Source: Stenomitos rutilans HA7619-LM2 (GTDB lineage Bacteria > Cyanobacteriota > Cyanobacteriia > Leptolyngbyales > Leptolyngbyaceae). Taken from it: a stretch of 64,000 bases of DNA. The stretch is taken from the NCBI GenBank assembly GCA_019358945.1, contig JAHHIE010000024.1, positions 1-64,000 of the forward strand. The letters are read 5' to 3'. Position 1 is the first letter of the stretch. Every line of letters starts with the position of its first letter. Below are positions 43,464-45,881 of the stretch, in pieces. Made by a program: the position numbers and the translations under genes. The notes under the pieces were generated by a model, which was not told the origin of the DNA, did not search any database, and worked only from the letters and a program-made list of their open reading frames with translations.

Positions 43464-43727
43464 TTAAGCCAAATGACGTTGCAAAACTGCACGGGGTGCA
43501 CGACGCACTCGGCAAAGAATCGTTTCTTGCCCTAAACGGCTACAGGCTTCATACCGATGACACCCAGAGAAACCGTAGTATTCGCCATCAACCTCTAGCA
43601 CGTCGATTGGCTCCTGTAGCCCAATTTCTTGAATCGACTCCATAAGAGCAGCTACTTTGGTTTGATCATTCTGCCGAAACAAGGGGCGGCGAATTTTGCT
43701 GATTGGGATTGCTTCTACTCTGACCAT
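43464..43727 (-). CDS. srx: Sulfiredoxin
   Basis: An 87-aa enzyme that uses ATP to rescue over-oxidised 2-Cys peroxiredoxin (Cys-SO2H). The diagnostic motif is YYGFSGCHRYEA, with the catalytic Cys and the ATP-binding His-Arg. The fold is a ParB-like domain, so automatic annotation often says ParB; the Cys and the short length decide it. ALMESIQEIGLQEPIDVLEV is typical. The ATG at 43727 has AAAGGAT immediately upstream and fits the family start MVRVxxIPxSxIRRPL; an ATG at 43745 would add six residues. Confidence 0.92.
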   Translation of the reverse strand: MVRVEAIPISKIRRPLFRQNDQTKVAALMESIQEIGLQEPIDVLEVDGEYYGFSGCHRYEACSRLGQETILCRVRRAPRAVLQRHLA

Positions 43728-43859
43728 ATCCTTTATCTTTCGCATTCACTCTTAAATCATACTCGTTATGACTACGGATTGCAACAAGGCTGAAGGGGAC
43801 GGGGAGTAGAGCTAAAGGATAAAGGCTAAACGTCGATTTAGATGGGGTTTGTACAGAGA

Positions 43860-43975
43860 TTCTAAAGGCTAAAGGTAGAAGCTGATCGCTGACCGCTGAC
43901 CGCTTAAAAGCTAATCCTTCATTTGTTTATCCTTCGCCCCTCTCCCCTTTCCCCTCGCTTCATTTTTCGCCGTTA
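43860..43975. repeat. Repeat mosaic upstream of the cobalamin riboswitch
   Basis: TGATCGCTGACCGCTGACCGC units, then CCCCTCTCCCCTTTCCCC pyrimidine units. Same families as elsewhere in the window. Confidence 0.65.
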
Positions 43976-44003
43976 ACCAGCCATGAGCTACAATACGCAA
44001 GCC

Positions 44004-44256
44004 ACTTCAGGTTCTCTGGGAAACAGCCCAGACACGGTTAGCAACGTCTAACCGAGGGAAAGTCCGGTGCTTTTGTTAACGCAAAAAAGTCCGGCACTGT
44101 GCCGCAACTGTGAAGAACAAGGTACAAGAGCTAGGGGATGGGGTAGAAGGAGCATTAAACGCTTCCCTAACCCCTGAACCCTAACCCCTTACCCCATTCC
44201 AAGTCAGAATGCCTGCTTGAAGTCACAAACCCCATCACGCCTGCGACACACAGGCG
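44004..44256 (+). promoter_or_regulatory. Cobalamin riboswitch
   Basis: Conserved elements appear in order: a P1 arm (ACTTCA, 44004-44009, pairing with TGAAGT, 44218-44223), GGGAAAGTCCGGTG (44056-44069), the B12-box region CCGGCACTGTGCCGCAACTG (44091-44110) and GTCAGAATGCCTGC (44203-44216). The peripheral arm 44128-44200 is long and contains AACCCCT/AACCCTA repeats. A separate hairpin CGCCTG-CGACACA-CAGGCG (44238-44256) lies ten bases before the ATG; its loop could pair with CTGTG of the B12-box loop and its 3' arm covers the only ribosome-binding-site-like AGG. Translational control is therefore likely; this is inferred from layout. Confidence 0.85.
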
Positions 44257-44266
44257 AAAGTTAACG

Positions 44267-44974
44267 ATGCAAAGTTTAGATGTTTTACGCCGATCGCCGA
44301 CGGCAGACTACGTGGCGACGGTGCTTAGTTCTGTGGCGCTGACACCCACCATCAAAGCGATTCGACTGCGATTGGACCGAGACGAACTCCGGTTTTTACC
44401 AGGACAGTCCGTTTGGCCTAAATTTGAGCGCGATGGTCGCAAATTTAGCAAAATCTACTCGATCGCCTCTTCTCCCTCTGCCTGTCCTGACATTGAACTC
44501 TGCGTCTCGCGTGTGGGCTGGAGTTCGGCTGTCGTACAGGATCTGGCGATCGGGCAATCCTTGCCACTACGAGGGCCGTATGGTCTGATGACGTTAAGCG
44601 AGCTACCCCAGCGTCCACGCCTTTATATTGCTGAAGGGTCAGGGATTGCACCATTGAAAAGCCAAATCGATTGGCTACGCGAGTGCGGCTACAAGCTGCC
44701 CGTCTGGTTGGTGCAGGCAAACCCCGAAACTCCCGACCAGCTACCCTATCAGCCGTACTGGCAACAATTGCAGCAAACCTGGCCTGCCTTTCACTATCGG
44801 GACGCGATCGCTCAATGCCCGGAAAGCGTTTTGGTCAATCTACGGCTTAAGCTGGCAGCGTTTGATGTGGTGATTTGTGCGGTGGGCGATCGCTCAGACC
44901 AGCTTCAAGAAACCGCTTTGGCGTTGGGTGCGAAGCCCGACCAACTGCGATCGGAGAAATTCATTGCGTTCTGA
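44267..44974 (+). CDS. Flavin/ferredoxin reductase-family oxidoreductase under cobalamin control
   Basis: A 235-aa FAD/NAD(P)H reductase of the FNR superfamily, about the size of the E. coli flavin reductase Fre, with no iron-sulphur domain. The FAD motif is SKIYSIASSP (RxYS-type, here KIYS) at about 64-73. GQSLPLRGPYG binds the FAD phosphates. YIAEGSGIAPLKSQIDWL is the nucleotide motif (SGIAP). The C-terminus ends in EKFIAF. It stands directly behind a cobalamin riboswitch, so a role in reducing cob(III)- or cob(II)alamin before adenosylation is the best guess. No other B12 gene is adjacent. Confidence 0.82.
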   Translation: MQSLDVLRRSPTADYVATVLSSVALTPTIKAIRLRLDRDELRFLPGQSVWPKFERDGRKFSKIYSIASSPSACPDIELCVSRVGWSSAVVQDLAIGQSLPLRGPYGLMTLSELPQRPRLYIAEGSGIAPLKSQIDWLRECGYKLPVWLVQANPETPDQLPYQPYWQQLQQTWPAFHYRDAIAQCPESVLVNLRLKLAAFDVVICAVGDRSDQLQETALALGAKPDQLRSEKFIAF

Positions 44975-45208: not shown

Positions 45209-45269
45209 GTCAAAAGGGAGACTGTCAGCTATCTTGTCTTTTTATGTTTGCTGTCTGCGCTGCCTTTCC

Positions 45270-45881
45270 ATGACTTCTGAAAAAACCTCGACCTCTGAGC
45301 CTCCCGCAGAATTACCGCTACCAGTAACGGTCGCACCTGCGCCTCCGCGTTGGCGAGCCTGGTGGGAAAACGTTCAAATCCTCATCATTGCGCTGATCCT
45401 GGCACTCTTGATTCGAGTGTTTGTGGCAGAACCTCGCTACATCCCATCCGATTCGATGCTGCCGACCTTGCAGATTGGCGATCGACTCGTGGTGGAAAAG
45501 CTTTCGTATCGCTTTCATCCGCCTGAGTTTGGCGATATCGTCGTCTTCGATCCGCCTCACCAACTTCAAGTTCAAGGCTATACCAAAGATCAGGCGTTTA
45601 TTAAGCGCATTATTGGTCAACCTGGGCAAACCGTTCAGGTTAAAAACGGCACGGTTTACGTCGATCAACAACCACTCCAGGAACCGTACATTGCCGCTCC
45701 ACCCAACTACACGCTGCCACCTGTCACTGTGCCTAATGGTGAGTTTTTTGTAATGGGCGACAACCGTAACAACAGTAATGACTCCCATGTTTGGGGGTTT
45801 CTACCGCAGCAGAACATTATCGGTCGCGCTTGGTTGCGCTTCTACCCATTTAAGCGTCTTGGGCTAGTAGCAAAGTCGTAA
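45270..45881 (+). CDS. lepB: Signal peptidase I
   Basis: A 203-aa serine/lysine peptidase that removes signal peptides outside the plasma or thylakoid membrane. One transmembrane helix (VQILIIALILALLIRVFVA, about 24-42) is followed by the catalytic serine in IPSDSMLPTLQIGD and the catalytic lysine in FIKRIIGQPGQTV. The C-terminal box FVMGDNRNNSNDSHVWGFL is complete. The ATG at 45270 is preferred over an upstream in-frame codon at 45234, because the tail before the helix then has the usual length. Cyanobacteria usually have two paralogues; this one cannot be assigned. Confidence 0.95.
   Translation: MTSEKTSTSEPPAELPLPVTVAPAPPRWRAWWENVQILIIALILALLIRVFVAEPRYIPSDSMLPTLQIGDRLVVEKLSYRFHPPEFGDIVVFDPPHQLQVQGYTKDQAFIKRIIGQPGQTVQVKNGTVYVDQQPLQEPYIAAPPNYTLPPVTVPNGEFFVMGDNRNNSNDSHVWGFLPQQNIIGRAWLRFYPFKRLGLVAKS

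Follow-up and report, generated by a model that had tools for sequence, protein, structure and literature searches.

The window analysed here is a stretch of 64,000 nucleotides from Stenomitos rutilans HA7619-LM2 (contig JAHHIE010000024.1, positions 1 to 64,000, forward strand). It contains a cobalamin riboswitch directly upstream of a gene for a small flavin-type reductase, with a signal peptidase gene further downstream on the same strand. The features of the locus are as follows.

43992-44234, + strand: cobalamin riboswitch aptamer (RF00174, Rfam; model positions 1-189, complete)
44097-44110, + strand: aptamer segment with loop L5 (CTGTGCCGCAACTG); pattern present in 18 of 23 leaders, potentially pairing with the hairpin at 44238-44256
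44202-44213, + strand: 3' conserved box of the aptamer (AGTCAGAATGCC); pattern present in 17 of 23 leaders, and in L003 with one mismatch
44238-44256, + strand: putative expression-platform hairpin (P13/L13-like), with a 6-bp stem and a 7-nt loop, delineated from pairing and covariation in 18 leaders
44267-44974, + strand: FAD/NAD(P)H reductase of predicted FNR fold, 235 aa, no iron-sulphur domain found (ORF, Pfam, predicted structure)
45234-45881, + strand: signal peptidase (lepB; PF10502), downstream syntenic neighbour

The riboswitch leader

The RF00174 match at 43992-44234 scored 35.3 bits in the Rfam search (gathering cut-off 31.5; E=4.2e-6), confirming the cobalamin riboswitch that a sequence-only reading had recognised there, although its start had been placed at 44004, 12 bases too late. 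The element is a new member of the known RF00174 family, with which it shares the complete model match, the conserved boxes and complementarity of the L5-L13 type, and from which it differs in its target gene and, together with its nearest relatives, in a long variable arm. It presumably responds to the ligand and controls the reductase gene, whose ATG start lies 32 bases downstream of the aptamer. The variable arm occupies positions 44111-44201 of the window and is flanked by the L5 segment and the 3' box. From motif start to motif start, it spans 92-108 bases in the window and the six nearest riboswitch-bearing relatives, and 38-95 bases in the other 11 leaders. In the window, it includes purine-rich and pyrimidine-rich stretches that resemble, by eye, the upstream region 43780-43960.

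In the genome of the strain (7.28 Mb), two RF00174 matches were detected at E<=0.001, a count that divergent riboswitches can escape (as with L020, see below). The second lies upstream of cbiM (cobalt uptake) and, with 324 bases (G000:C2:111675-111998; L001), is longer than the other listed matches. A small ORF on the minus strand of the window (43464-43745), divergent from the riboswitch, showed a weak match to a ParB N-terminal domain (22.7 bits, cut-off 26.3).

The hairpin at 44238-44256 ends 10 nt upstream of the reductase ATG, and an equivalent hairpin closes all 18 riboswitch-bearing leaders, across which its six pairs were formed in 95.4% of cells. Five covariation measures were compared with shuffled data, in a test inflated by the kinship of the sequences: three of the six pairs were altered on both sides, with 17 such cells against 5.2 in the shuffles, and the covariation score (0.532 against 0.252) was reached by none of 500 shuffles. 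Two of the five measures were not above the shuffles, namely the number of pairs with two-sided change (reached by 88 of 500) and the number of further pair types (reached by 375 of 500). Sliding the pairing partners, a control that preserves relatedness, abolished the covariation.

The hairpin is able to pair with the aptamer loop L5 (TGTGCCGC or TGTGACGC). The two are complementary at all eight positions in 14 of the 18 leaders and at seven of eight in the other four (window, L003, L020 and L021), counts for which the chance level was not controlled; the hairpin loop contributes five of these positions and its closing stem three. The window contact includes one mismatch (C.A), and that of L007 one change on both sides. 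As L5 is nearly invariant, the match mostly reflects conservation rather than covariation. We take L5-L13 complementarity before a regulated gene to be a feature of cobalamin riboswitches. No terminator-like site was found on the + strand between 43700 and 45300. Since the covarying hairpin just before the ATG can pair with L5, control of the reductase is probably translational.

The reductase and its structural relatives

In Pfam, FAD_binding_6 was the sole domain to reach its cut-off in the window protein (29.9 bits), NAD_binding_1 remained under its own (17.6 bits, cut-off 22), and no iron-sulphur domain was found along the 235 residues. Among 28 family members, FAD_binding_6 was detected in all 28 and NAD_binding_1 in 25 (E<=0.01). 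The window protein matched 19 NCBIfam models, none at cut-off, with BenC and MmoC as the best weak matches, and scored 28.2 bits with the Fre equivalog model NF005963, against a cut-off of 230. A profile built from the 28 members had its best match in the benzoate dioxygenase reductase BenC (1krh, E=1.7e-16).

The AlphaFold model of the reductase (mean pLDDT 91.2, pTM 0.90) gave, on or near the top of its structural matches (VIA-align), GcoB (Z 27.9), NqrF (26.4), BenC (25.4) and Fre (24.7), a close set of scores which, for a predicted model, indicates fold and not function. The BenC/MmoC-type domains, GcoB and NqrF, all of the FNR superfamily, have the same two-domain FAD and NAD(P) fold as that predicted for the window reductase. 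BenC-type reductases differ by a fused [2Fe-2S] ferredoxin domain, which was not found in the window protein.

The alignment of the 28 members, from which L013 was omitted because of its broken frame (as it was from the protein tree), contained 49 invariant columns, including K62-Y64-S65, W85, E123-G124-S125 and C204. Compared with BenC, GcoB and NqrF, a lysine replaces the first arginine of RxYS, which we take to be the usual flavin motif, and CAVGDR stands in the window protein where the matched PDB chains have CGP at the nicotinamide site. The domain PF01613 was absent, both from the window protein (at E<=0.001 or 0.01) and in the tally of the 28 family members; we take it to be the flavin-reductase domain of CobR, whose flavin-reductase fold is presumably other than that of the window reductase.

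The description of the gene product as a small FAD/NAD(P)H reductase without an iron-sulphur domain was thus upheld by the predicted FNR fold and by Pfam, and its designation as Fre-like stands at the level of the fold but not of the family. E. coli Fre, an NAD(P)H:flavin oxidoreductase, has the same fold and a similar size (1qfj; Z 24.7, rmsd 2.3 over 211, 18% identity), whereas the window reductase lies far under the Fre cut-off. Judged by sequence and predicted structure, the window reductase appears at least as near to the reductase domains of BenC, GcoB and NqrF as to Fre. We know of no B12 control of fre.

Orthologues, B12 regulon and possible partner enzymes

A protein search at E<=1e-15 matched the reductase in 32 of 388 genomes of the class, the own genome included; the family is patchy, and most of the sampled cyanobacteria therefore manage without the reductase. 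The close set comprised 23 loci with at least 59% identity and an available upstream region, one per genome (the window, L003-L013, L020, L021, L044, L046, L049-L052, L054, L056 and L057). Six distant homologues (44-47% identity) belonged to family f14, perhaps relatives of Gloeobacter by our guess. Three genomes stayed outside the close-set count: G004 (gene at a contig end), G026 (94-residue match) and G266 (32% identity in a 460-aa frame, a different protein). The match in G026, a same-family genome, covers only the C-terminal 94 residues (L023; G026:C79:22063-22362) and is perhaps a decayed copy.

The sequence-only reading had named a survey of orthologues for B12 riboswitches as a check, and such a riboswitch was found immediately upstream of the start codon in 18 of the 23 assessable close relatives, window included, and upstream of none of the six distant homologues (Rfam and motif scans). 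Fifteen of the 18 reached a family cut-off, two were below it (27.1 bits in L003/L015 and 31.1 bits in L050), and one, L020, was recognised by motifs only, with its conserved boxes intact and no Rfam match, so that riboswitch counts from Rfam are lower bounds. The riboswitch of L052 was matched as RF01482 and also as RF00174. The five close relatives without a riboswitch in the Rfam and motif scans were L006, L011, L051, L056 and L057; at these five and the six distant loci, motif scans across 1200 bases with a tolerance of 3 mismatches returned only 3-mismatch matches. In L006 (2430-2533), the aptamer is absent and a hairpin-like remnant (ATGTCTGCGACGCAGGC) precedes the start codon, in a metagenome assembly where a misjoin is possible.

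Coincidence is not a plausible explanation for a riboswitch that 18 of the 23 assessable close relatives, window included, carry at the same position. When the trait was mapped onto the tree of 28 family proteins, it required 4 changes compared with 9.0 for shuffled labels; 8 of the 25 inner branches of this tree are starred, and its resolution is poor. One gain followed by several losses is the likely history, and only likely, because of the weak resolution of the tree.

The signal peptidase ORF, the next of note on the same strand, begins 259 bases after the reductase, in agreement with the earlier view that no other gene immediately follows the switch, and lepB is probably outside the B12 unit. 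Across 30 reductase loci (2-9 kb each), no B12 gene was found among the ORF clusters common to at least three of them. An ORF of the lepB cluster occurred in 19 of the 30, at loci with and without the riboswitch.

The wider B12 regulon was sampled at 91 other riboswitch loci from 49 related genomes, out of at least about 150 matches listed for 68 genomes; about 40 further listed matches lie outside the sample, and a few sampled pieces end at contig ends. The leading target was taken to be the named cluster that comes first along the locus, cbiM being given preference. A named target was reached at 67 of the 91 loci, consisting of genes for cobalt uptake, corrin synthesis, B12-uptake-type proteins, DUF1636, cobW or metE. 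The leading targets were distributed as follows.

Named targets: cbiM 21, hupE 12, cbiX 9, cbtB 9, cobG 4, TonB-plug protein 4, DUF1636 4, metE 3, cobW 1
Unnamed clusters, 19 loci: K4 12, K18/27 4, K20 3
None named: 5

Pfam was run on ten cluster representatives; eight were matched, with CbtB and YtkA slightly under cut-off, and those of K4 and K20 were not. Representatives of cbiM and metE were also confirmed (one metE locus checked). The sampled regulon agrees with the target classes given in the cited passages of earlier work, namely isozymes and genes for B12 synthesis and for the transport of B12 and of cobalt (PMC3766115), genes by which Anabaena makes or imports B12 (PMC10878165), and metE in Limnospira (PMC8400943). 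The reductase profile found no relative among the 442 ORFs of the 91 loci. ORFs of clusters K4 and K10, without an assigned function, recur behind B12 riboswitches of related genomes (K4 in L067, L083, L101, L111, L135 and others; K10, with a weak YtkA match, behind cbtB in L142).

Possible partner enzymes were surveyed in 68 hand-picked genomes, 29 with the reductase and 39 without, the latter from families f1 and f24; a further 18 or so genomes of these two families, lacking a clear orthologue, were not included. The CobA/BtuR adenosyltransferase family (PF02572) was over its cut-off in all 68 genomes, a presence that is needed for a corrinoid-reductase reading, yet does not discriminate, being universal. 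The strong single-domain CobA form (>200 bits) occurred in 60 genomes, and only CobA-family matches of about 150 bits in the other eight (G274, G289, G268, G010, G299, G086, G119 and G147), four of which are less than 85% complete and seven of which, all but G010, possess the reductase. In the own genome, a 220-aa ORF passed TIGR00708 (254.7 against 167.75) and a two-domain ORF passed NF005647 (758.5 against 426), both models for cob(I)yrinic acid a,c-diamide adenosyltransferase. This two-domain CobA-family protein (L159 94-1365; G000:C39) exists beside the single-domain CobA, and similar matches recur across the 68 genomes. A CobA-type adenosyltransferase of the own genome is located at G000:C4:103293-103811. 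A PduO-type adenosyltransferase was detected in one of the 68 genomes, merely as a fragment with a stop.

Several other candidates were rejected. The small subunit of class I ribonucleotide reductase (RNR; PF00268) was found in none of the 68 genomes, which dismisses class I RNR as a partner; the NrdJ model TIGR02504 was matched only in the six genomes with distant homologues and is therefore uninformative on the remaining ones. BluB was likewise discarded, with no match above the curated cut-off and four weak matches in the 68 genomes. The precorrin-6A reductase CbiJ/CobK was already present in 64 of the 68 genomes, including the own genome, so a replacement of this enzyme by the reductase was not retained; none was found in G274, G289, G086 and G119, all of which possess the reductase and two of which are incomplete assemblies, and the gene was broken in G299 and partial in G186. 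CobG matches exceeded the curated cut-off in 55 genomes, of which 27 with full-length matches of at least 281 bits were counted as true CobG and the remainder taken, by our own judgement, for sulphite/nitrite reductases; weaker or fragmented matches (G005, G006, G010 and G174) were not counted. With this score limit of our own, full-length CobG-type proteins were commoner in genomes without the reductase (19 of 39) than with it (8 of 29), so no tie to the aerobic route was found and a CobG link was rejected.

Proposed role and competing explanations

Adenosylation of a corrinoid requires Co(I). The best reading, to which we give about even chances, is that the reductase is a corrinoid Co(II) reductase or supplies electrons to CobA. 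When adenosyl-corrinoid is scarce, the leader would leave the start codon free and the reductase would be made; when it is plentiful, the ligand would stabilise the contact between L5 and the hairpin and block translation, as the leader anatomy and covariation suggest. The enzyme, by its predicted fold, would transfer hydride from NAD(P)H onto FAD and then donate electrons one by one to a Co(III)/Co(II) corrinoid, which most probably sits on CobA/BtuR; the resulting Co(I) corrinoid would then be adenosylated. We infer the use of FAD and NAD(P)H, the corrinoid as acceptor and the contact with CobA. The reductase would thereby fill the role held elsewhere by CobR, PduS or flavodoxin, and the enzyme would be, on a corrin-reductase reading, an FNR scaffold for a known type of activity. 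According to the cited passage, free flavins act more slowly as reductants when the adenosyltransferase is of the CobA type than when it is of the PduO type, which may explain dedicated reductases (PMC4083273); a B12-repressed enzyme of FNR fold would fit such a need of CobA.

CobR of Brucella shares the proposed role, as an NADH-dependent enzyme that supplies a CobA-type adenosyltransferase with Co(I) by reducing Co(II) (PMC4083273, cited passage). Its mass is 18.7 kDa (PMC2982820, cited passage), compared with 235 aa for the window reductase, and its corrin binding is demonstrated, whereas the window reductase is a candidate known from its sequence and predicted fold. A likeness is also proposed with PduS of the pdu metabolosome, described in the cited passage as an NADH-dependent flavin enzyme that reduces cobalamin (PMC2982820); PduS differs in having two [4Fe-4S] centres and FMN in 48.6 kDa, and no iron-sulphur domain was found in the 235-aa window reductase. 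More tentatively, and with the odds somewhat against it, the reductase may belong to a cyanobacterial family that has not been described before, dedicated to corrinoid reduction for a CobA-type adenosyltransferase and without kinship to CobR, PduS or flavodoxin; its own product would then exert feedback control on it by way of a B12 riboswitch acting on translation.

We favour a corrin-related role on three grounds: at 67 of the 91 regulon loci the switch precedes metE or genes of B12 or cobalt handling, the CobA family is found in every genome tested, and class I RNR, BluB and a missing CobK were excluded. The same evidence favours the preference of the sequence-only reading for a corrinoid role over that of a general flavin reductase, a preference weakened by the restriction of the gene to 32 of 388 genomes and by the lack of recurrent B12 neighbours. 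Two of the outcomes that would have refuted the sequence-only reading were looked for and did not occur: the riboswitch model did not fail, and close orthologues do not generally lack B12 control. Several observations stand against a corrinoid reductase: the patchy family, the five close and six distant loci without the riboswitch, the lack of a recurrent B12 neighbour and of a CobG tie, CAVGDR in place of CGP, the weaker CobA-family matches alone in eight of 68 genomes, seven of them with the reductase, the mismatch in the loop contact of the window, and the two of five covariation measures not above shuffles.

Another cobalt or corrinoid step would predict B12 repression equally well: imported corrinoids might be stripped reductively of their upper ligand, cobalt might be reduced ahead of its uptake or insertion, or the electrons might go to a different B12-regulated redox protein such as DUF1636. 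The regulon of the relatives includes cobalt transporters, CbiX, the TonB-plug protein and DUF1636. We nevertheless consider such a step rather unlikely, as no recurrent neighbour supports any of its variants, and cobalt uptake or chelation usually operates on Co(II) without a dedicated reductase. A general flavin reductase, providing for example FMNH2 for BluB or other two-component enzymes, has a precedent in Fre, of the same fold, but is improbable, with BluB over its cut-off in none of the 68 genomes and the B12 switch of 18 of 23 close relatives left unexplained. Support of a B12-independent isozyme induced at low B12 would recall E. coli Fre, which supports class I RNR, and metE, an isozyme, is indeed a target at 3 of the 91 sampled loci; this is very improbable, since the absence of PF00268 from all 68 genomes largely refutes it for class I RNR and MetE requires no flavin reductase. 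That the switch truly serves lepB or a longer operon, with the reductase as a passenger, can be dismissed almost entirely despite the recurrent order of the two genes, as the switch is kept at four loci where no lepB-cluster ORF was found (L008, L010, L049 and L054, with 4.0, 1.4, 1.1 and 1.5 kb covered downstream), and lepB is present without the switch at four others (L006, L011, L051 and L056).

To our knowledge, the source of Co(I) for adenosylation in cyanobacteria is not settled. Searches of the open-access literature showed no paper on cyanobacteria in which a flavin-type reductase is linked with a B12 riboswitch; an earlier mention is possible. The B12-sensing leader together with the reductase offers one gene for deletion, expression and assay, and a reductase found inactive on corrinoids would still mark an unknown redox step of cobalt or B12 handling. 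Of the 68 genomes, in none of which the class I RNR small subunit was found, any that rely instead on a B12-dependent ribonucleotide reductase need adenosyl-corrinoid for DNA synthesis.
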